This document shows, piece by piece, positions 7,094 to 40,194 of a stretch of DNA of 47,473 nt. The notes under the pieces were generated by a model. The model ran no database searches and had not been told where the DNA came from. It saw nothing but the letters and a program-made list of their open reading frames with translations. The stretch covers positions 1 through 47,473 of the IMG/VR virus record IMGVR_UViG_3300002835_000322. The stretch is one strand, 5' to 3'. Each line of letters opens with the position of its first letter. The first letter of the stretch is position 1. Made by a program: the position numbers and the translations under genes. Source of the stretch: a virus.

Positions 7094-8547
7094 ACGAAGC
7101 AAAAATCATAATTAAGGACGAAGTTAATGTAAAGATTGAGGGTCTAGAACTTTCAGATCGCCGTGCATTGATGAAGAAGTTTGAATACGAAAAGCCGGGG
7201 GCAAGATATTTGCCCGCAGTTCGTTTGGGTCGTTGGAACGGCAAGATTAGCTATTTTAGTCTTGCTGGTAGCACTTATCTAAACCTCCTAGAAGATGTTA
7301 TCACGTATCTGTATGATAAGAATTATGACATTGAATTAGTTGACCATAGGCAAAGTCACGGCAAGTTAGAGTTTGACCTAATCCGTGAAGATAGTTTTTC
7401 TGACACTGTATGGCCAAAAGGGCATGAACGTGAAGGTCAACCTATCGTGCTACGAGACTATCAGGTTGAGATTGTCAATAACTTTTTAGCTAATCCTCAG
7501 TGCTTACAGGAAGTCGCCACGGGAGCGGGCAAGACATTGATGACTGCTGCTCTATCTAAGTCCGTAGAGCATCTAGGACGCTCTCTAGTGATTGTCCCCA
7601 ACAAAAGTCTTGTTACACAAACAGAAGCAGACTACATCAACTTAGGATTGGATGTTGGCGTCTACTTCGGTGACCGTAAGGATTACGGCAAGACGCACAC
7701 AATCTGCACTTGGCAAAGCTTGAATAATTTATTCAAGAACACAGCCGAAGCTGGCGAAGAAAAACTAGATGAATTCTTTTTTGAAGATATTGCTTGTGTA
7801 ATCGTTGATGAGGTACATATGGCAAAGGCTGATGTTCTCAAGACAATGCTTACCGGAGTGTTCAGTAACATTCCTATTCGCTGGGGACTGACAGGAACCA
7901 TTCCTAAAGACAAGATGGATCAGGTATCATTGCTTGTATCCCTCGGTCCCGTCATTGGTAAGCTGTCAGCAAAAGAATTACAGGACAAGGGTGTACTCGC
8001 ACAATGTCATGTTAACATTGTTCAGCTTAAGGATAAGGTTGAGTTCACTAACTACCAGTCAGAATTGAAACATCTACTAGAAGATTCAAATCGCCTTGAT
8101 ACAATTGCCGCATTAATTGACAAAGTGAATCTGACTGGTAATACTTTGGTCCTTGTTGACCGAGTGAATGCAGGAAAAGAAATCGTAAGCAGATTAGGTT
8201 CCAATGCTGTCTTTGTAAACGGCGGCACTGGATTAACAGAAAGAAAGGCAGAATATGATGAGGTTGCCACGAGCGACGATAAAATTATTGTCGCAACGTA
8301 CGGCGTTGCGGCTGTCGGTATTAATATTCCTCGGATCTTTAATTTGGTTCTTATTGAGCCTGGCAAATCGTTTGTACGAGTTATTCAGTCAATAGGCAGA
8401 GGCATTCGTAAAGCAGAAGACAAGGACCATGTACAGATTTGGGATATCACATCCTCATGTAAGTTTGCGAAGCGTCACTTGACACAACGTAAGCAGTTCT
8501 ACAAAGAAGCCAACTATCCTTTCAGTATAGAGAAATTGGACTATTAA
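7090..8547 (+). CDS. uvsW: UvsW, superfamily 2 helicase
   Basis: This 485-aa protein is the T4-type RNA-DNA and branched-DNA helicase that unwinds R-loops and drives fork regression, shifting replication from origins to recombination. Motif I A-T-G-A-G-K-T is at about 143-149, motif II D-E-V-H at 240-243, and motif III L-T-G-T near 273. Motif VI Q-S-I-G-R-G-I-R-K lies near residue 435. The first 110 residues form the usual N-terminal DNA-binding domain. Length is close to T4 UvsW (about 500 aa). It is coupled to the preceding gene by an ATGA overlap. Confidence 0.93.
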   Translation: MNEAKIIIKDEVNVKIEGLELSDRRALMKKFEYEKPGARYLPAVRLGRWNGKISYFSLAGSTYLNLLEDVITYLYDKNYDIELVDHRQSHGKLEFDLIREDSFSDTVWPKGHEREGQPIVLRDYQVEIVNNFLANPQCLQEVATGAGKTLMTAALSKSVEHLGRSLVIVPNKSLVTQTEADYINLGLDVGVYFGDRKDYGKTHTICTWQSLNNLFKNTAEAGEEKLDEFFFEDIACVIVDEVHMAKADVLKTMLTGVFSNIPIRWGLTGTIPKDKMDQVSLLVSLGPVIGKLSAKELQDKGVLAQCHVNIVQLKDKVEFTNYQSELKHLLEDSNRLDTIAALIDKVNLTGNTLVLVDRVNAGKEIVSRLGSNAVFVNGGTGLTERKAEYDEVATSDDKIIVATYGVAAVGINIPRIFNLVLIEPGKSFVRVIQSIGRGIRKAEDKDHVQIWDITSSCKFAKRHLTQRKQFYKEANYPFSIEKLDY

Positions 8548-8551
8548 TATC

Positions 8552-8580
8552 TTGACATATACAGTAAAGGTTGATATAAT
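8552..8580 (+). promoter_or_regulatory. sigma70-type promoter, leaderless geometry
   Basis: TTGACA (8552-8557), 17 nt, TATAAT (8575-8580). Six nucleotides then the ATG at 8587, with no room for a Shine-Dalgarno sequence. Confidence 0.85.
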
Positions 8581-8586
8581 AACATC

Positions 8587-9087
8587 ATGAGAATACTTAC
8601 CCTTGAAAATACTTCGTATAATCTAGAGACATTGCCTGATGAAATAGATGATCTGCGATTTTCTATTTTAGATAACAGCGTCCCTGCTAATGTAGATTAT
8701 CATTTTATACCCCTTATCTTTTTAGAATCGTTTAATAGTCCTGCATTGGTATTGAAGATTGCAGATAAAGTGATTAAGATGCCGATGGATTGGCAAGTGC
8801 TAATTGGTGAACAAGAGCATGGAGATTTAGAAGCATTACCTCTTTCGAGTCTTAATGACAGAGGATTCAATGCCTTTCAATTTAATTCACTGACATCATT
8901 TGTCCCGACATTCTTGCCTATTGAGATTCTTGATATCTATCCAGAAGTTACATGGTATGCACCCAGATTGAAAAATGGTCAATTTTTAAGCGTCCCTATT
9001 GATGAAGGAGAAAAGCCCAGATGCGTGTATTTCATTAAAGAAGTCAGTAGAAACTGTGAAATTGTAGATTATTCTTTAGCTTACTAA
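8587..9087 (+). CDS. Conserved hypothetical phage protein
   Basis: The 166-aa protein is predicted soluble and mostly beta. A central region reads K-M-P-M-D-W-Q-V-L-I-G-E followed by L-P-L-S-S-L, which is like uncharacterised proteins of other T4-like phages in my memory. No catalytic motif is evident. It is transcribed from a near-consensus promoter whose start site coincides with the ATG, so it is probably a leaderless early message. It leads the epimerase/clamp-loader operon. Confidence 0.75.
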   Translation: MRILTLENTSYNLETLPDEIDDLRFSILDNSVPANVDYHFIPLIFLESFNSPALVLKIADKVIKMPMDWQVLIGEQEHGDLEALPLSSLNDRGFNAFQFNSLTSFVPTFLPIEILDIYPEVTWYAPRLKNGQFLSVPIDEGEKPRCVYFIKEVSRNCEIVDYSLAY

Positions 9088-9101
9088 AAGGAGACGTAGT
9101 G

Positions 9102-9245
9102 ATGACTGTATTGAAAGCTTACAAAAGGTGCGTTAAGCAGAAAAAAGAAGGTGATGTGATGGGTGTAGTGCGAACTTTATTCCCAAACATTCAAGTAGAA
9201 ACCTTTATCGAAAATCGCAAAATTAGTACGCAGATTAAAAAATGA
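9102..9245 (+). CDS. 47-aa basic protein
   Basis: An AAGGAG lies 11 nt before ATG 9102 (a GTG at 9099 in the same frame is closer). The product is 47 aa, highly basic (about a dozen Lys/Arg) with a hydrophobic middle. Its stop overlaps the epimerase start by ATGA, so it appears to be a real coupled gene. No family recognised. Confidence 0.6.
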   Translation: MTVLKAYKRCVKQKKEGDVMGVVRTLFPNIQVETFIENRKISTQIKK

Positions 9246-10156
9246 GAGTTCTAATTACTGGTCATAGCGGATTCATCGGGCAACATATTGTAGCACGACT
9301 AACAGATAAGCATGATTTATTTTTGCTTGAAAGCGACTTGCGGGATCATACCGCTGTTCGTGACGAGGTTCATGCTGCTGATCCGGAAGTGATTGTTCAT
9401 CTTGCCGCTCGGACCGAAGTAGAAAAATCTTTTTATGAACAGACTGTGTTCAGCGAGATTAACTATGTGGGCACGGTAAACTTGATTGAGGCCGCAAGCC
9501 AACTTTCAAATCTAAAGAATTTTGTGTTTGCTTCTACTATGGAAGTATATGGTTGGCAACCTATCAGTGACCTTATCAGAGACGGAAATGAATCTGAAAT
9601 TGAAGTCTTTGATGAAACTACAATTCCCAATCCCAATGCTCCGTATTCAGTAGCAAAATTTGCTTGTGAAAAGTATTTGGAATATGCAAGCAGAAGCTAC
9701 AACTTCCCGTATACTATCATTAGACAAACTAACGCATACGGTCGTAAAGATAATGACTTCTTTGTTACAGAACAAATCATCACGCAGATGCTAAAGAACC
9801 CAAATGAAATCAATTTGGGGTATGGGGTACCGTATCGCAATTTCTTGTACATCGATGACTTAATTGATGCTTGGGAAGTTATCATCGATAACCCAGGCAA
9901 GTGCGTAGGTCAATTGGTCTGCTTGGGTCCTAACAATGCAATTCGTATTTCAGACTACGTGGATATGATTGCAAAGAAGTTAAATTGGGAAGGTAAAGTC
10001 AACTGGAATACCAAACCAGCTAGACCCGGAGAGATTTATCTGCTAAACAGTAGTAATGCAAAGCTTACTAAAATGACTGGATGGGAACCCAAGATCTCAC
10101 TTAGTGACGGGTTAGATAGAACAATTGAATTTTGGAGAACACATTTAAATGTCTAG
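9242..10156 (+). CDS. NAD-dependent sugar-nucleotide epimerase/dehydratase
   Basis: The 304-aa protein is an extended short-chain dehydrogenase/reductase, most like UDP-glucose 4-epimerase or NDP-sugar dehydratases. The Rossmann motif G-H-S-G-F-I-G is at residues 7-13, L-A-A-R-T near 54-58, and the catalytic Y-S-V-A-K near 136-140 with an upstream Ser in F-A-S-T. The C-terminal substrate region contains R-P-G-E. It acts in the cytosol on a nucleotide sugar; the exact sugar cannot be read. It may alter host surface glycan or supply a sugar for modification. It sits in a replication operon, which is unusual placement. Confidence 0.88.
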   Translation: MRVLITGHSGFIGQHIVARLTDKHDLFLLESDLRDHTAVRDEVHAADPEVIVHLAARTEVEKSFYEQTVFSEINYVGTVNLIEAASQLSNLKNFVFASTMEVYGWQPISDLIRDGNESEIEVFDETTIPNPNAPYSVAKFACEKYLEYASRSYNFPYTIIRQTNAYGRKDNDFFVTEQIITQMLKNPNEINLGYGVPYRNFLYIDDLIDAWEVIIDNPGKCVGQLVCLGPNNAIRISDYVDMIAKKLNWEGKVNWNTKPARPGEIYLLNSSNAKLTKMTGWEPKISLSDGLDRTIEFWRTHLNV

Positions 10157-10289
10157 TGGTCATCATGCACACACAACACTCGGTCAGGCAAAGTACAACA
10201 GAACGATAGCAGGCACTCTACCCAGCCAAACTGTATTTAGGCTTGATTCTGCTAGAAATCGCAAGGTAAGAAAAGAGAAGGAAAAGAAG

Positions 10290-10580
10290 ATGGGTTGGTT
10301 AAAACGTAAGTTTGCACAATGGTGCCGCGAAGCATGGGAAAATTCTCGTCATGAGGATAGAACATATGCAGTAGTAGACTCTGTTCAATCTCGGAGCATT
10401 GATGCAAACAAGAGCATTCGCTTCACTATCTATCCAGCATCTGGAGGCTACGTGATTGAACATTACAAAAATGAACGTATGCGAGAAAGTGATGGGCCGA
10501 CGCTGACTATTGTTAACAACGGTGACAGTATTGGTCAAGCGATTGAACACGTTATTGCAGTTGAATCGTTGAAGGCATAA
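10290..10580 (+). CDS. Conserved hypothetical phage protein
   Basis: The reading frame is open from an ATG at 10149 that overlaps the epimerase. I prefer ATG 10290 because an AAGGAAA precedes it and the upstream part is low-complexity and basic. The 96-aa product begins M-G-W-L-K-R-K-F and has a helical basic N-terminus, then a small beta domain (F-T-I-Y, G-G-Y-V-I-E) and a C-terminal helix. This looks like small proteins found near replication genes in T4-like phages. Function unknown. The start could be 10149 if the extra 47 residues are real. Confidence 0.7.
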   Translation: MGWLKRKFAQWCREAWENSRHEDRTYAVVDSVQSRSIDANKSIRFTIYPASGGYVIEHYKNERMRESDGPTLTIVNNGDSIGQAIEHVIAVESLKA

Positions 10581-23984: not shown

Positions 23985-24012
23985 CCCAAAACCAAGTTTT
24001 TTTCTGTCAGGC

Positions 24013-31059: not shown

Positions 31060-31105
31060 GTTCTCATGAGGAGAACTTATGCAGTACCCACTGCGTAGCG
31101 ACTAG
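31060..31105 (+). promoter_or_regulatory. Structured leader with short ORFs
   Basis: Two tandem hairpins lie just after the late transcript start: GTTCTC/GAGAAC at 31060-31076 and GCAGT/ACTGC at 31081-31094. GAGGAG precedes ATG 31079, opening an 8-codon frame that ends at TAG 31105; another short frame runs from ATG 31066 to TAG 31098. The main gene starts at 31135. Confidence 0.5.
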
Positions 31106-31134
31106 AACTCGCATATAACATTAAGGAAAAACAA

Positions 31135-32496
31135 ATGGGACGTCCACTAAAAATCGCAAAGGCTCAAGCAGTCTTGACAGTAACTAATACTACTGCAACA
31201 ACAAATATCGTAACAGTTTCTCAAAATTTAAGCTCACTAGGTGTTATTGCTGGTATGCCGTTCGTACCTAGCATCACAACTGGTACAAACTTGACCGCTG
31301 CTACAACCTTCTATATTCTAGCAATCACTGGTGCATCAACATTCACTGTTTCTGCAACTCCACTAAACGCTAACCCAACATCTACTCCGGTTACATTGAC
31401 TACCGGTACAACTGCATCAGCATTGTCAGTTGGTGTAGTTGATGCATACTTCAACAACCCAACCGGACCTCAATGGCCAGCAACAAACGCAAATACTTAC
31501 TCAGTAGTCGGTGGTAACACTGCAATCTTCGGTAAGCAAGTTCTTGCTAACGTTGCTATTGGTGTTAATGGTACAGGTACTCTGTATACTGTTTCTACTT
31601 CAAGCACTAAGGTAGGCGGTCTCGGTACCAGTTTTTCTACTATTGGTGCTGCAAGCGTCATTCAGTACATCCCAGCAAACGGTGTTCCAACTACACTTGG
31701 TTATGTAAGCAGCAACGCTCAGCCAAACATTGAAATCTCAAATGCAACTGCAACCGGTAATTTCTTGACTACTGTTGGCAACGCACAAACTCTTACTGCA
31801 AATCTTCCAGTAATTCTTGACACTGATATCGGTGGATTGACTGCTGGTACTACTTACTTTGTTAAGACTATTGCTAATGCTGCTGCTTTCAGTGTTTCAA
31901 CTACACCCGGCGGCGCTAACGTTGGTCTAACTAACGAAGATGCAGAATCATATGCAACTCAGGATGTTATTACTTTAGCATCTAACGCAACTGCTGCTAT
32001 TACTGCTGGTTCAGCATTCATTTATGCAACTCCAGAAGCAGGCTTCATTGTTCGTCAAAAGGGCAAGACAAAGTATCTCGTAACTGGTACAACTTCTGGT
32101 CTAACTGGCGCGGTTTATACTGCAAACGTTGCAAATACTGCATTGCTTCCAAACACAATGTCAATCAGAGCAACTAACGCAGCTTCTGGCGTACAATTTG
32201 TTTCCAGCGTGAATGATCATAGCTCAGAACTATTCCCAGCAACAGTTGCGGCAGGCTCATTGTCAGCAGGTACTGTATATACAATCTACAGTGCAGGTAC
32301 TACTGACTGGACAGCAGTTGGCGCAATGGCTAGCATGACTGGTATCACCTTTACTGCTACTGGAACTGGTTCTGGTACAGGTCTTGCAGTATTAGCTAAC
32401 GTTAACCCTGATGTCATTTCATCGTTCAACTCAGCCGCAGTTGCAAACGTAGACAATGGTCAGCCAAATCCGATTGTTACAATCGCAAGCGCATAA
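31135..32496 (+). CDS. Large Thr/Ala-rich structural protein
   Basis: The 453-aa protein has low charge and high Thr, Ala, Gly and Val. A segment near 370-415 reads G-T-V-Y-T-I-Y-S-A-G-T-T-D-W-T-A-V-G-A then G-S-G-T-G. It matches a short module common in phage tail and structural proteins. The start G-R-P-L-K-I-A-K is basic. Together with the late promoter and structured leader this points to a virion component made in large amounts. The exact part is unknown. Confidence 0.75.
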   Translation: MGRPLKIAKAQAVLTVTNTTATTNIVTVSQNLSSLGVIAGMPFVPSITTGTNLTAATTFYILAITGASTFTVSATPLNANPTSTPVTLTTGTTASALSVGVVDAYFNNPTGPQWPATNANTYSVVGGNTAIFGKQVLANVAIGVNGTGTLYTVSTSSTKVGGLGTSFSTIGAASVIQYIPANGVPTTLGYVSSNAQPNIEISNATATGNFLTTVGNAQTLTANLPVILDTDIGGLTAGTTYFVKTIANAAAFSVSTTPGGANVGLTNEDAESYATQDVITLASNATAAITAGSAFIYATPEAGFIVRQKGKTKYLVTGTTSGLTGAVYTANVANTALLPNTMSIRATNAASGVQFVSSVNDHSSELFPATVAAGSLSAGTVYTIYSAGTTDWTAVGAMASMTGITFTATGTGSGTGLAVLANVNPDVISSFNSAAVANVDNGQPNPIVTIASA

Positions 32497-34604: not shown

Positions 34605-36326
34605 TTATACTTCCGGGGGTACTGGGTCTAGGGTAGGTTGCAACACAGACGATAGTGGTTGTGCTTGAGGAACAACTTCTCCCGCATTATTTAGATAGAT
34701 TTCACCCTGGTTGTTAATAAAGCCGGACAATAGTGATGTGTCCTCAGCAGTAAATCCAGTATCAGTTCTTACATTTTCACTAATACGAATCCACAGCTTG
34801 CCGTCCCAGCGATATAATATTTGCGGCATATAATCAATACGTAAGAAATAGTCACCTACTTGTGGATTTTGCGGGAAAGCAATACCGGCACCAACGGGGA
34901 AACCATTTGGTGCTTCGCCGTCACCCGTCAGGTAACCTGTGCTATATCCAAATGATCTAGGACTTGATCTAGTAATATACTGAAATCCAGGATCACAGTC
35001 TGCACGATAGTCCATATTTTGAGTTATATCACCCGTAAAGCCCGGCAGTTCTGGATTTTGGTCTGCGGTTGCGTAAGTATTGTCAGCCGTACCATATGGA
35101 CCCGTGATTATACCCAATGACTGTACTGCGAGAGACTTGGTAGTTTCTACTGAGCCAGAACCGCTCCCTATTAAAACAGGTGCTTCTTCTACCATGTTCA
35201 GACTTGCCTGAACAAATTTATCAAGTTTGTCTGACATATCTGCATCAGCAGTCATATCCCAAATACTAGTTAGGACTTCTTTCTTGATTTTGATTCCTGC
35301 ACTAGCATTTTTATATTTTTTACTACGCATAAACACTACAGTTCCCTCTACTGGAATAGCAGTTCCTGTATTGCTTGAAGTGATTACGTTAATTGGTGGA
35401 GCCGGCTCATTTATCTTACCTGATGGAACATTATTTGATTCTAATGCACCATAAGTAGGAACAACGTATAGTTTGCTCGAATCATATCCGGCTTTGGGAA
35501 CAATACGTTTAGCTTCTTCAAGTTGGGCGTTGTTGATTGCTATGTTTTTGTTATAGGTAGATAATATGTCAGCTAAGCTACTATTACCAGTAACTAGCTG
35601 CCAGTATGTTGCATTCGGCGGCGCAACACCTGCCGGGACTTCGCTGATAGATTCGTAGATAGTATCACCAAAGGTAATTGTGTAGCCTGGCGGATAAGTT
35701 CTATCTCTGTCCCAGTTACCGAGATAGTTGTCTTGATTGATAGGTTCTTTGAGAATGTCATCAAATTCTTGACTACTGACAAGCGGTTCACATTTGATAC
35801 GCCACAAGTGCGGGAACCAAGTTTGAGTAAACCCTTCACTTGCATAGTTAGCATCGGTGATTTGCATGAATCTTTTCAACGCTACAGGTATAGCCTCATT
35901 GAGTGGATTGTAATCAATCAAGTGTGGTAGTTCCAGTACGTCACCGACCATAAGTTTTCTACCTACAAGATCTATCATATCGTTGTAGTGGACAGTGATA
36001 AAGATTATATCATTATTCAGGAACAAACCAAATTGGCTTAAGTCAAAGTCCAAGTTCTGTACATTATAGTGTCCGCGCAAACGATAGATATTCTTGTCAT
36101 ATACTCGGTCACGGTTCTCTAAGAACAGCAAATCTTGAATGTTTAGTGGATCAAGTGCATCATAATTAGGCTGCGTGAAGTCTGTGGAAGTAGTCCCCGT
36201 CTGCGGACCTAAGTATTTGTGAATATACAGATCGGTACCTCCGACCGTAAGCTGTTCGGAAATAGTTCTGTCTAAAAAACGATAATCGTCTTGTTTATTA
36301 GGGCGATAGAGACTTAATCTTGGCAT
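34605..36326 (-). CDS. gp14: Neck protein gp14, enlarged
   Basis: The 573-aa protein has a core near residues 95-160 that resembles T4 gp14 (256 aa): S-Q-F-G-L-F-L-N-N-D-I-I-F-I-T-V, then G-R-K-L-M-V-G-D-V-L-E-L-P. gp14 forms the head-tail neck with gp13. The C-terminal 300 residues look additional and carry a module V-G-D-Y-F-L-R-I-D-Y then Y-R-W-D-G-K-L-W near 485-515. It lies on the minus strand while gp13 is on the plus strand 5 kb away. The late box is exactly 6 nt before the ATG. Confidence 0.78.
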   Translation of the reverse strand: MPRLSLYRPNKQDDYRFLDRTISEQLTVGGTDLYIHKYLGPQTGTTSTDFTQPNYDALDPLNIQDLLFLENRDRVYDKNIYRLRGHYNVQNLDFDLSQFGLFLNNDIIFITVHYNDMIDLVGRKLMVGDVLELPHLIDYNPLNEAIPVALKRFMQITDANYASEGFTQTWFPHLWRIKCEPLVSSQEFDDILKEPINQDNYLGNWDRDRTYPPGYTITFGDTIYESISEVPAGVAPPNATYWQLVTGNSSLADILSTYNKNIAINNAQLEEAKRIVPKAGYDSSKLYVVPTYGALESNNVPSGKINEPAPPINVITSSNTGTAIPVEGTVVFMRSKKYKNASAGIKIKKEVLTSIWDMTADADMSDKLDKFVQASLNMVEEAPVLIGSGSGSVETTKSLAVQSLGIITGPYGTADNTYATADQNPELPGFTGDITQNMDYRADCDPGFQYITRSSPRSFGYSTGYLTGDGEAPNGFPVGAGIAFPQNPQVGDYFLRIDYMPQILYRWDGKLWIRISENVRTDTGFTAEDTSLLSGFINNQGEIYLNNAGEVVPQAQPLSSVLQPTLDPVPPEV

Positions 36327-36330
36327 ATAG

Positions 36331-36338
36331 TTATTTAT
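36331..36338 (-). promoter_or_regulatory. Late promoter, leaderless geometry (minus)
   Basis: Reads ATAAATAA on the minus strand. The last A of the TAAATA core is at 36332, so the expected start is 36326, the A of the gp14 ATG. Confidence 0.75.
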
Positions 36339-36350
36339 CGAAAAAAAAGG

Positions 36351-36379
36351 TTGACAAGGTTAGCCAAAACCTTTATAGC
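36351..36379 (+). promoter_or_regulatory. sigma70-type promoter for HNH gene
   Basis: TTGACA (36351-36356), 17 nt, TATAGC (36374-36379). Its flanks GGTTGACA and CCAAAAC recur at 38718-38738. Confidence 0.8.
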
Positions 36380-36415
36380 GAAGATATCAACAACAGAATT
36401 GAAAGGTTGATTAAC

Positions 36416-36793
36416 ATGCATATTCGTCCTATTTGTATTAATCATGGTTGCAATCGTCCGGTCGCACATTCAGGTACACGTTATCGCCCGGTGTGTGGGC
36501 TTTGTCATCAAGCAGGATATAACAAAATTCCATTTAAATGGGGTGTTACGCCATTCCGTACAGGGCGCTGTAGCAACACCGACAGTCATTTAGGCTTTAC
36601 CTGTGCAATTGATTATGATAAGGCACCCTGGACACTTGGCAAAACCCACGTTGATCATATCGACGGTAATCATTTGAACAACGTATTATCTAATGTAGTT
36701 GAACTATGTCCGCTTTGTCATCAGCATAAGGGTATGCTCGCCGGCGACTTCAAGAATCAAGGTGTGTATCACTATAACAAAAATAACGGTTGA
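36416..36793 (+). CDS. HNH endonuclease
   Basis: I start at ATG 36416, with GAAAGG 9 nt before it and downstream of the promoter; a longer frame from TTG 36320 overlaps the promoter. The 125-aa protein has zinc-binding Cys (C7, C12, C27, C30), then H-V-D-H-I-D-G-N-H-L-N-N and a C-P-L-C-H-Q-H-K knuckle. This is the HNH core with metal and catalytic His. It cleaves DNA in known members; as a free-standing phage gene it may be a homing-type nuclease. It sits directly before the TonB receptor in the accessory island. Confidence 0.88.
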   Translation: MHIRPICINHGCNRPVAHSGTRYRPVCGLCHQAGYNKIPFKWGVTPFRTGRCSNTDSHLGFTCAIDYDKAPWTLGKTHVDHIDGNHLNNVLSNVVELCPLCHQHKGMLAGDFKNQGVYHYNKNNG

Positions 36794-36818
36794 CAAGGTT
36801 CTATAAACATGTTATAAC
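36790..36818 (+). promoter_or_regulatory. sigma70-type promoter for TonB receptor
   Basis: TTGACA (36790-36795, overlapping the HNH stop), 17 nt, TATAAC (36813-36818). This near-consensus promoter gives the receptor its own transcript. Confidence 0.85.
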
Positions 36819-36846
36819 TATACTTCAAGTAAGAAAGGAAATTATT

Positions 36847-38676
36847 TTGAAAACATTTAAACTTTTTGCCACCACCGCAGCATTAATGCTTTCGTCTACA
36901 ACTTATGCACAGACAGAAATCGTAGTGACTGCATTGCGCACTCCTACAAATATAGCAAATACCGGTACTCAAGTTACTATAGTTGATAGTAATGAAATTA
37001 CAAATAGGCAGACTGCAACTATTGCAGAACTACTTGCCACTCTCCCAGGTATTACGATTGACCGTTCGGGCAATACCGGAAGCGTTTCCAGTGTTAGAAT
37101 TCGCGGAGCAGAAAGCGCACAGACTCTAGTATTGCTAGATGGTGTGCGAATGAACGATATTGCGAATCCAGCAGCTAGCTTTGACTTTGGCAGTTTGGTC
37201 ACTGGCAATATTGACCGTATTGAGGTATTACGCGGCCCCAGTTCTGTTCTTTGGGGAAGCCAAGCAGTTGGCGGAGTGGTAAGTTTGACTACTCGTGCTC
37301 CTAGCGATAATCTTACTAGTCGTGTTCGCGGAGAGTATGGCTACTCTGATACTGCTCGTGCATATGCTGACCTTAGCGATACTGTCGGCGCTGTCTCTTA
37401 TCTGATAGGTGGCGGACATGAACGCAGCGATGGTATTTCTGCTGCTGCTAATGGTAGTGAGCGTGATGGCTTCAAGGCTAGTGCAGCAAATGCTAAAGTA
37501 GGCATTCGTCTATCTGATAATGTCAATATTGATTTGCGTAGCAATTATCTAGAAACTCGTTTCAGTTTTGACGGCTTCCCTGCTCCTCGCTATATTCTTG
37601 CTGACACCGGTGAGTATTCAAATACTGATAGCCTAAGCGGTTACGCTGGTATTAATGCTTCGTTTTTTGATGGCAAGTTCAAGAATCGTGCATCACATAG
37701 CCGCGTAAAGCTAAATCGCTACAACTATGAAACCAATAACACTGAAAACTTTCGCAGTGCAGGAATCAATGAGCGATTTGAATATCAGGGTACAGTTGAT
37801 TTAGGTTCTAACAAAGCTATCTTTGGTTACGAACACGAGGCAAATGACTTTGAAACTAAGTACAACTATTCTGGCTTTCGTGGTGGTAATCAAGCTACAG
37901 CAAATATTGATAGCATCTATGGCCAACTTGCAACTCAGCCACTATCTAATCTATCAGTTAATGCTGGTGCCCGCCGTGATTGGCATAGCGGTTACGGAAA
38001 CGAAACTACCTTTGGTGCCGATGCTGTATATGCGTTAGGTGATACTACTCTACGAGCAAGCTATGGTGAAGGCTTCAAGGCCCCTACTCTCTATCAATTG
38101 TACGGAGACTATGGAAACGATGACCTTCTTGCAGAAACAGCAAAGGGTTTTGATGTAGGAGTCACCCATAAGTTCAATGAACAGTTTGATGTTACTGCTA
38201 ACTATTTTAAGCGCAACACTAACAATCAAATTGATTTTGATCTTGGGACCTACACTTACAGTAACCTAGGTACTACATCAGCACAGGGCGCAGAAGTCAT
38301 TGCTACGATTGTTCCATTGACTAATCTAGCGGTGTCTGCGAACTACACCTACACTGAATCTACTGACAAGGATACTGGACTTGACCTTCCTCGTCGTCCA
38401 CGACACTCTACCTCAATTCGTGTCGATTATACATGGACGAACGGACTTGCAACAGGTGCAACCATTCGTTACGTGGGTAAGGCTTGGGAGAATGCTGCTA
38501 ATACAAACAAAATTGATTCTTATGTATTAGTAGACGCAACTGTTCGTTATCCCTTGACTGCATCGCTTGAATTGACCGGGCGTGTTGAAAATGTCTTCAA
38601 TGAAAGTTATGAGACTGCAAAGGGATATGGTACATATCCTAGAGCAGGGTATATCGGCATTAGAGCAAAGTACTAA
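36847..38676 (+). CDS. TonB-dependent outer-membrane receptor (BtuB-like)
   Basis: I start at TTG 36847, after AGAAAGGA; the frame also extends upstream over the promoter. The 609-aa protein has a signal peptide (M-K-T-F-K-L-F then a hydrophobic core) with likely cleavage after A21. A TonB box T-E-I-V-V-T-A follows at 23-29. The plug (about 30-160) has V-R-I-R-G-A-E, L-L-D-G-V-R-M-N-D and E-V-L-R-G-P-S-S-V-L-W-G. A 22-strand type barrel follows, ending in the aromatic residue Tyr as outer-membrane proteins do. Family members import vitamin B12, siderophores or sugars with TonB energy. It appears intact. Confidence 0.93.
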   Translation: MKTFKLFATTAALMLSSTTYAQTEIVVTALRTPTNIANTGTQVTIVDSNEITNRQTATIAELLATLPGITIDRSGNTGSVSSVRIRGAESAQTLVLLDGVRMNDIANPAASFDFGSLVTGNIDRIEVLRGPSSVLWGSQAVGGVVSLTTRAPSDNLTSRVRGEYGYSDTARAYADLSDTVGAVSYLIGGGHERSDGISAAANGSERDGFKASAANAKVGIRLSDNVNIDLRSNYLETRFSFDGFPAPRYILADTGEYSNTDSLSGYAGINASFFDGKFKNRASHSRVKLNRYNYETNNTENFRSAGINERFEYQGTVDLGSNKAIFGYEHEANDFETKYNYSGFRGGNQATANIDSIYGQLATQPLSNLSVNAGARRDWHSGYGNETTFGADAVYALGDTTLRASYGEGFKAPTLYQLYGDYGNDDLLAETAKGFDVGVTHKFNEQFDVTANYFKRNTNNQIDFDLGTYTYSNLGTTSAQGAEVIATIVPLTNLAVSANYTYTESTDKDTGLDLPRRPRHSTSIRVDYTWTNGLATGATIRYVGKAWENAANTNKIDSYVLVDATVRYPLTASLELTGRVENVFNESYETAKGYGTYPRAGYIGIRAKY

Positions 38677-38686
38677 GACGAAAGAA

Positions 38687-38717
38687 AATAGCCTCATTCA
38701 TTTGAGGCTATTTTTTT
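38687..38717 (+). terminator. Rho-independent terminator after TonB receptor
   Basis: AATAGCCTCA (38687-38696), a 6-nt loop, TGAGGCTATT (38703-38712) and a T-run to 38717. The receptor gene thus forms a closed transcription unit. Confidence 0.92.
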
Positions 38718-38719
38718 GG

Positions 38720-38748
38720 TTGACATGGTTACCCAAAACTGCTATAAG
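38720..38748 (+). promoter_or_regulatory. sigma70-type promoter
   Basis: TTGACA (38720-38725), 17 nt, TATAAG (38743-38748), with flanks very like those at 36349. Confidence 0.8.
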
Positions 38749-38772: not shown

Positions 38773-38976
38773 ATGGGTTATCGTATTCTTCGTGATCGTG
38801 AAACTAAGTATCAACCGCGTAAGGGTCTTGAAGGTCCGTTCTTCTATCCTAATGGACGAGTGACGTACTACGATCCGAAAGAGGGTGCATATTGGGACCC
38901 TACTACAGACTTCTACCTCTCGTTTGAGGAACAAAACGAACTACAAAATATGATTTTTGACAAACTTAAGGCTTGA
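38773..38976 (+). CDS. Small hypothetical protein
   Basis: The 67-aa product begins M-G-Y-R-I-L-R-D-R-E-T-K and has a Tyr/Pro-rich middle (P-F-F-Y-P-N-G, then Y-Y-D-P-K-E-G-A-Y-W-D-P) and a helical end. It has its own promoter and AAGGAG. No family recognised; the island location after the receptor makes a linked role possible but unproven. Confidence 0.7.
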   Translation: MGYRILRDRETKYQPRKGLEGPFFYPNGRVTYYDPKEGAYWDPTTDFYLSFEEQNELQNMIFDKLKA

Positions 38977-39033: not shown

Positions 39034-40194
39034 ATGGCTCGCCGCCCCGCAATCATTAAAGCTAAATCCACTAAGAAGACTACTCGTGCCCCTCGTCGCG
39101 GCGTCAATCGCTTTAGCTTGATGCCCACAGACAACTGGGATAAGGCAAGGTTCTTCGCTCACTATGATGTTGAGCGCAAAGATTGCGGCAACAAGGTTAG
39201 GGAATATATCAAGCAGAACTTTCCCAAAGATGTCTTGACTAAGGTCAATCGTCTTCCCGATTGGAAGGTTGATATGTATAGTCACTGGGCTGCTACCGCC
39301 CATCTGCTAGAAGTTAATCCTGACCTTGTTCCAGATGGCTACAAGACTGGCATTGTGAAGTGGATTGAGACCCTTGCTCTTGAAGGTGCTGCACTCACTG
39401 CTAAGAAAGAAGAAACCGAAGGCGAAGAAAAGCCTAAGAAGGTAGTCAACATTCAGGAAATCATGCGTGAAAAGGCTGATGAAGCCCTCGGCAACATTGA
39501 AGCACTGTTTGACGAATTTATTGATTCTGGCTTCTCTAAGGATTTCAGCATTGACAAGAAGGTCATCGGTGCATTGTCTTCCCGCAATGTTCTTCCCCAG
39601 CATCTTGCATCAGCTATCAAGCGTTGGAACACTCTGCTGAACGAATATCTTGAAGTTCAAGCAGGCAAGTGTGACCAGCTGAACGAAGGTTATAGCAACT
39701 ACAGCAAAATGCAGCTTCGTTATGCTATCAAGTTGATTGAGGATATCATTGCCGAATTCAATGGCTACATCAGTCTCAAGCAAGTTGCTAAGAAGCCTCG
39801 TGCTAAGAAGGCTGTGCCCGTTGAACGGGTCGTTGCTAAGCTTAAGCACTGCAAGTCGTTCAAGGACGATGCACTCATGCTTGAACTTACTGGTCTAAGC
39901 CCCGTCAAGCTTCATCAAGCAACAGAAGCTTGGGTCTATGACACTAAGAAGCGTAAGATGCACCACTACGTTGCAGACGCTTACAGCAAGTGCTTGCTAG
40001 TGAAGGGCAATACTGTCATTGGCTTTGATAAGAAGGAAAGCGGCATGAAGACGCTTCGCAAGCCCGTTGAACAGATTAAAGCTATCATGGGTAGTAAGCC
40101 TGCTGCTCGTAAGTATTTCAGTGAGATTAAGGCTGTTGAGGCTGTCCCGAATGGTCGCTTCAATATTGACATGATTATCCTTAAAGCATTTTAA
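39034..40194 (+). CDS. Conserved hypothetical phage protein
   Basis: The 386-aa protein has a very basic N-terminus (1-25, with Arg and Lys) of the sort that binds nucleic acid. A helical middle (about 125-240) follows, then a Lys-rich linker near 255 and a C-terminal domain with strands. Codon use is richer in C-ending codons than nearby genes, similar to the AAA+ gene at 4863. It has a strong early promoter. I do not recognise the family, though similar proteins occur in T4-like phages by memory. Confidence 0.75.
   Translation: MARRPAIIKAKSTKKTTRAPRRGVNRFSLMPTDNWDKARFFAHYDVERKDCGNKVREYIKQNFPKDVLTKVNRLPDWKVDMYSHWAATAHLLEVNPDLVPDGYKTGIVKWIETLALEGAALTAKKEETEGEEKPKKVVNIQEIMREKADEALGNIEALFDEFIDSGFSKDFSIDKKVIGALSSRNVLPQHLASAIKRWNTLLNEYLEVQAGKCDQLNEGYSNYSKMQLRYAIKLIEDIIAEFNGYISLKQVAKKPRAKKAVPVERVVAKLKHCKSFKDDALMLELTGLSPVKLHQATEAWVYDTKKRKMHHYVADAYSKCLLVKGNTVIGFDKKESGMKTLRKPVEQIKAIMGSKPAARKYFSEIKAVEAVPNGRFNIDMIILKAF

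Follow-up and report, generated by a model that had tools for sequence, protein, structure and literature searches.

Why should a T4-like phage carry a complete outer-membrane transporter gene among the genes for its virion? The question is raised by a 47,473-base IMG/VR virus record (IMGVR_UViG_3300002835_000322), analysed here over its whole length and referred to as the window. Its genes are of the T4 type, and include those for an ssDNA-binding protein, UvsX, UvsY, a UvsW-like helicase, a replicative helicase, and a primase, together with a gp15-like tail-sheath stabiliser, a neck adaptor, MazG, and a dNMP kinase. Within its T4-type neck/tail module sits a gene for a TonB-dependent receptor, and the answer favoured here is that it is probably an early, riboswitch-free B12 uptake gene of a T4-like phage lineage, encoding a BtuB-type receptor that came from, or from near, the Sphingomonadales. 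The receptor gene and the features that surround it are as follows:

34605 to 36326, minus strand: gene for a virion structural protein (phrog_11591) that bounds the variable locus on the left (PHROG, locus comparison)
about 36339 to 36332, minus strand: T4-type late-promoter-like motif GATAAATA of the phrog_11591 gene
36349 to 36793, plus strand: gene for an endonuclease of the HNH (homing) type, under a GGTTGACA promoter of its own, 5' of the receptor (PHROG HNH matches, PADLOC homing endonuclease)
36790 to 36818, plus strand: sigma-70-type promoter TTGACA-N17-TATAAC with GG just before it, left joint of the cassette (sequence, eight representative phages)
36847 to 38676, plus strand: predicted BtuB-type TonB-dependent outer-membrane receptor, 609 aa, TTG start (Pfam, PDB sequence search, NCBIfam, AlphaFold2, Foldseek)
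about 38682 to 38716, plus strand: intrinsic terminator, hairpin and T run, with the next promoter directly 3' (fold, alignment with relatives)
38718 to 38747, plus strand: promoter of the next gene, GGTTGACA-N17-TATAA, right joint of the cassette (alignment, pattern count)
38773 to 38976, plus strand: conserved small gene (67 aa) that closes the locus on the right in relatives with an empty site (locus comparison, alignment)
39034 to 40194, plus strand: conserved phage gene phrog_11903, 386 aa, right-flank anchor (PHROG, locus comparison)

The longer start proposed by the ORF finder, at 36790, reads through the receptor promoter; the true frame begins at the TTG codon at 36847, which is the start codon in all phage receptor copies inspected and follows an AAGGAA ribosome-binding site by about 7 bases. 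By inspection, the protein holds a signal peptide (residues 1–21, ending ...MLSSTTYA before QTE), a TonB box (24–29, EIVVTA), and a C-terminal Tyr. An earlier note on this DNA had described a complete receptor with an RBS, signal peptide, TonB box, plug, barrel, and aromatic C-terminus, under its own promoter and closed by a clean terminator; every one of these elements was found, the last two as the TTGACA-N17-TATAAC promoter and a hairpin of -20.7 kcal/mol (z -6.3). Two faults considered in that note, chimeric flanks and a broken frame, are both absent. The frame is unbroken in 12/12 aligned full-length homologues and also in L034, a relative with a 77%-identical receptor. The receptor occurs in 17 further IMG/VR contigs, making 18 records with the window, from many metagenomes and 77–100% identical, and wherever flanks are present among these they carry the same phage genes. 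Four contigs of other metagenomes encode the identical protein; three of them cover both flanks, with genes 97–100% identical, and the fourth starts within the cassette. With intact copies on 17 further contigs, the receptor is therefore not an assembly chimera, and the probability that the region is chimeric or a misassigned bacterial fragment is practically nil, given 18 records from many metagenomes, shared phage flanks, and the clean empty sites described below.

The identity of the protein was established at several levels. Both the plug (PF07715, 92.9 bits; cut-off 23.9) and the barrel (PF00593, 149.2 bits; cut-off 27) are recognised by Pfam, and of the structures solved, BtuB from E. 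coli is nearest in sequence, matched over its full length (4.7e-42) at about 25% identity. Among the NCBIfam models, the best is TonB-B12 (TIGR01779), where the 292.1 bits obtained miss the equivalog cut-off of 599.7; NF007926 gives 223.5 bits against a cut-off of 836, and the second-best family is a siderophore subfamily model (180.8 bits). Two riboswitch-linked Sphingomonadales relatives scored on TIGR01779 miss its cut-off too (307 and 324 bits). Since the equivalog cut-off is missed, the protein is labelled BtuB-type rather than BtuB.

The predicted fold agrees with this label. An AlphaFold2 model built from a 27-row alignment (pLDDT 84.6, pTM 0.86) exhibits 22 barrel strands and a plug, and the top ten fold matches in the PDB with Foldseek are all BtuB from E. 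coli (TM 0.79–0.91, best E 3.1e-49). Sequence and modelled fold alike point to a receptor of the BtuB type, as the earlier note had proposed. The phage protein shares with E. coli BtuB (TIGR01779/NF007926) homology over the full length, the predicted 22-strand barrel with its plug, the TonB box, and the acidic loop positions, whereas it differs in its low identity, in scoring below the equivalog cut-off, in being phage-borne, and in the absence of a cobalamin riboswitch. Among the predicted viral structures of BFVD, the sole other full-length TonB-dependent receptor is the marine-phage SusC A0A8D9FQQ5, which bears out the claim of the earlier note that such an accessory gene is unusual in a T4-like phage.

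As for its origin, a first scan of genome contigs with rigid patterns returned no close cellular gene, and an alignment-based second scan found a Sphingomonas gene encoding a protein 41% identical. The closest cellular relatives found are BtuBs of the Sphingomonadales, 38–48% identical over their full length and holding the same conserved positions; among 301 sampled genomes from the order to which Sphingomonas sp. JC676 (L017/L037) belongs, no match exceeds 48%. Samples taken across the class and the phylum yielded best matches nearly all from genomes already in the Sphingomonadales sample. In the database search and tree called for by the earlier note, the phage receptors form one clade (100/100) beside the Sphingomonadales genes, on a stem branch of 0.68. 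One phage clade with a long stem in this position makes a single, old acquisition from or near the Sphingomonadales the simplest reading, the exact donor being absent from the sample. On the viral side, a broader family profile scan of IMG/VR returned the lineage of the window alone, and the best matches in the phage collection are bacterial contigs or unverified fragments, rather than isolate phage genomes encoding the receptor.

These relatives also suggest that the host belongs to the Sphingomonadales. A 333-kb relative of the window phage encodes a different TonB-dependent receptor of 791 aa (L259 5254–7629; IMGVR_UViG_3300032242_000723, approximately 85,253–87,628), 62% identical to a receptor of Sphingomonas sp. 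JC676 and with its other good matches mostly in the same order. That two unrelated phage receptors both point to the Sphingomonadales supports such a host. The 791-aa receptor, for which no close viral relative was found, adjoins genes for Hsp20, a ClpS-like protein, ClpP, and a primase.

The clearest difference between the phage gene and its cellular relatives lies upstream of the coding sequence. A cobalamin riboswitch precedes 20/20 near cellular loci scanned, as well as the Sphingomonas sp. JC676 gene (L017), whereas none was found at the phage gene when positions 36300–36860 were scanned, even at E<=1. In four phages (L007, L010, L011, and L034), only 81–85 bases separate the receptor from the divergent virion gene, a gap too short for an aptamer of approximately 190 bases. 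The riboswitch is lost in the phage copy, and its position is occupied by the sigma-70-type promoter. The cassette is framed by a sigma-70-type promoter and a terminator, unlike the Sphingomonadales genes with their cobalamin riboswitch.

This promoter is kept in 8/8 representative phage copies. The window holds 12 occurrences of the pattern GGTTGACA-N17-TATAR (with at most two mismatches), compared to 2.7 +/- 1.6 in shuffled sequences, and 0/100 shuffles reach 12. Motifs of another type, GATAAATA or CATAAATA, stand just 5' of genes at window positions 24012, 25451, 28068, 41424, and 47203 on the plus strand and 36339 on the minus strand; several of the genes behind them are virion genes, and the motifs probably serve this phage as its late promoter of the T4 type, in which G or C replaces the first T. 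Since the receptor has a host-type TTGACA/TATAAC promoter while the adjoining virion genes have late-type motifs, it is predicted to be expressed early in infection.

Comparison of 119 loci holding both flanking genes, which represent 69 distinct site versions, clarified the limits of the cassette. The receptor is present in eight distinct versions and missing in 61, counts that do not amount to a frequency because the sample was partly selected by similarity; versions with swapped cargo also exist. Empty sites (L144, L141, L105, and L093) read ...TTATTTATCGAAAAAAAAGGTTGACAC..., running directly into the promoter of the next gene, and the promoter at 38718–38747 is the sole one remaining in these relatives. 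Filled sites read ...AAGGTTGACA-[receptor]-terminator-TTTTTTTGGTTGACA.... From the empty and filled sequences, the cassette is one promoter–gene–terminator unit with GGTTGACA at both joints. The terminator hairpin is also found in L034, with a different stem sequence. In the window, the HNH gene forms a second promoter-led unit of the same type 5' of the receptor; it is also found in near-identical relatives and in L006/L030, and is absent from L007, L010, L011, and L034. Nested directly 5' of the receptor cassette, this unit may aid the spread of adjoining DNA. In L032, the receptor cassette is joined in the same variable locus by two small genes and an HNH gene, and homologues of rIIA and rIIB (7189–10310) lie 3' of all of these.

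The cassettes appear to move independently of their surroundings. In L006/L030 a receptor of 94% identity adjoins a virion gene of 70%, and in L009/L032 these values are 91% and 99%; this independence of receptor and flank identity indicates that cassettes are exchanged. A terminator stem-loop is joined to an early-type promoter (TTTTTTTGGTTGACA) at variable gene joints, which is the arrangement of the PeSL promoter–terminator cassettes that Arbiol 2010 and Comeau 2014, as cited in PMC4503421, describe for T4-like phages. Those cassettes likewise place an early-type promoter directly 3' of a stem-loop terminator where genes meet and are tied to module exchange, whereas the window has the host-type promoter GGTTGACA-N17-TATAA and an outer-membrane receptor as its cargo.

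The coding sequence is under constraint. Comparisons of the window receptor with the other phage copies give dN/dS values of 0.08–0.11, indicative of purifying selection. The alignment of 45 cellular homologues has 74 positions conserved to at least 95%; the window receptor retains 70 of them, and 68 are kept in all phages. Residues E205, D207, D242, and D253, present in 9/9 phage copies and in 44–45 of the 45 cellular proteins, align with D193, D195, D230, and D241 from E. coli BtuB, which we take to be calcium-binding residues of that protein; the position of E. coli D179 is Ser in phages and cellular relatives alike. Variable positions amount to 16% in the plug, 29% in the extracellular loops, 33% in the strands, and 70% in the periplasmic turns, and since the loops do not vary more than the strands, there is no sign of fast surface change. 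This pattern, mapped onto the predicted fold, agrees better with a functional transporter than with a decoy. Host-derived, intact, under purifying selection, and flanked by virion genes in many contigs, the receptor gene has the properties of an auxiliary metabolic gene.

A possible demand for the vitamin emerges from the candidate hosts. In 29 Sphingomonadales genomes with the cellular gene, MetH scored over its cut-off in 29/29, MetE in 5/29, and CobJ in 1/29; with CobJ as the sole marker, most of these bacteria are without B12 synthesis, and they depend on MetH for methionine. Class II ribonucleotide reductase did not exceed the cut-off of the one model used (NF005122) in any of the 29. The related 333-kb phage encodes a class Ia ribonucleotide reductase (NrdA/NrdB), and no phage enzyme that depends on B12 was found. 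A class II reductase is thus not supported as the cause of a B12 demand, the host side of this argument being a weak one, drawn from a single model. With MetH-dependent relatives mostly without B12 synthesis and no class II reductase match, the likeliest benefit would be a supply of methionine and SAM during infection.

Taken as a mechanism, the favoured reading would run as follows. An ancestor of the T4-like lineage would have acquired a BtuB-type cobalamin receptor once, from or close to the Sphingomonadales, and retained the gene between virion genes as a self-contained promoter–gene–terminator cassette. The bacterial gene would be off under its cobalamin riboswitch when B12 is plentiful, whereas the riboswitch-free phage copy, with its host-type promoter, would be transcribed early irrespective of B12. 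Once exported to the outer membrane, the receptor would draw on the TonB system of the host to import B12, and the imported vitamin would sustain MetH-dependent methionine and SAM synthesis while the phage multiplies. B12 uptake also requires the host TonB and BtuCDF. The earlier note had left two choices: import of B12 or of siderophores, and nutrient uptake or a changed receptor display. On the first, the riboswitch at the cellular relatives and the kept residues argue for B12 and disfavour a siderophore. On the second, uptake is favoured because of the riboswitch-linked cellular relatives, the conserved ligand-side residues, and the non-diversifying surface loops, and receptor display is left with a lower probability.

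Surface remodelling, in which the receptor would displace BtuB-like receptors of the host, or win against them in competition for TonB or surface space, or lack the epitopes bound by rival phages, cutting superinfection, is rather unlikely. TonB-dependent receptors, BtuB among them, are classical phage receptors (PMC8624392), a host-type promoter would suit early action, and the rIIA/rIIB genes lie at the receptor locus in L032. Moreover, T5 and BF23 encode a receptor-blocking lipoprotein (PMC8624392), and Cor of phi80 and N15 acts on FhuA (PMC11436027); these also concern TonB-dependent receptors. However, they block the receptor of the host, and known exclusion factors are small blockers and not complete receptors, whereas the window gene encodes a complete receptor itself and so does not belong among receptor-blocking superinfection factors. 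An extra receptor would, in addition, normally raise adsorption, and a role in display alone sits poorly with the retention of the plug, the TonB box, the acidic loop residues, and 70/74 conserved positions, as well as with extracellular loops that are not fast-evolving.

A change in specificity, by which the receptor would import some other scarce nutrient through TonB, be it a siderophore, a different corrinoid, or a further cofactor, is doubtful. The stem branch is long and the closest cellular BtuB found is no more than 48% identical, so the substrate could have changed, and the siderophore subfamily model ranks second. Against this, every cellular neighbour tested has a cobalamin riboswitch, the residues aligned with the calcium/cobalamin loop region of BtuB are kept, and the ten top structural matches are all BtuB. 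We would give a similarly small probability to a B12 receptor that, while still importing the vitamin, serves the phage as a competitive or social tool: displayed on infected cells and on the membrane fragments they release, it would alter which phages adsorb, for instance by soaking up rivals or exposing neighbours.

Far less probable is a virion or adsorption component, or a selfish cargo without benefit that spread with the neighbouring homing endonuclease. The receptor does lie between neck and tail genes, with the HNH gene directly 5' of it in the window, and the TonB-dependent receptor of the pelagiphage Polarivirus skadi, also encoded near virion genes, is tied to adsorption by its authors (PMC10504331). 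Nevertheless, the window receptor has an export signal and a host-type promoter separate from the late-type motifs of the adjoining virion genes, and strong purifying selection is seen in lineages without the HNH gene.

Phage TonB-dependent receptors were known before from two reports, the only ones met in a search of the open-access literature, in which a BtuB encoded by a phage did not turn up. One is the SusC-type receptor of the marine megaphage Mar_Mega_1, proposed to raise nutrient uptake (PMC9723777). Like the BFVD entry, it is a TonB-dependent receptor encoded by a phage, but it belongs to the SusC (carbohydrate) subfamily and to a marine megaphage lineage, and the BFVD entry is 13% identical to the window receptor. 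The other is that of Polarivirus skadi, which differs from the window phage in being of the HTVC010P type and in the adsorption-linked reading of its receptor (PMC10504331). If the favoured reading is true, a virus would override a vitamin-sensing RNA circuit and make vitamin supply part of infection. To our knowledge, the phage metabolic genes described to date work mostly inside the cell. Among aquatic bacteria, many of which have to scavenge B12, the receptor would also give viruses a part in the economy of the vitamin, and if it affected adsorption too, it would bear on how phages handle surface receptors after entry.

Several minor observations concern the same genomes. The family phrog_5687 carries the label 'unknown function', but since it has matches to each of the two phage receptors (E 1.5e-50 and 8.9e-21), it is a TonB-dependent receptor family. 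The Rfam motif freshwater-2 (RF02980) is found at 31060–31137 (+) of the window, directly 5' of a gene for a 453-aa protein (31135–32496) without PHROG or Pfam match; its presence in the related phages L030, L031, and L034 as well indicates that T4-like phages are among the carriers of this orphan motif. Finally, the window encodes at 9242–10156 (+) an NAD-dependent sugar epimerase/dehydratase resembling GDP-mannose dehydratase, possibly a gene for surface or DNA sugars.
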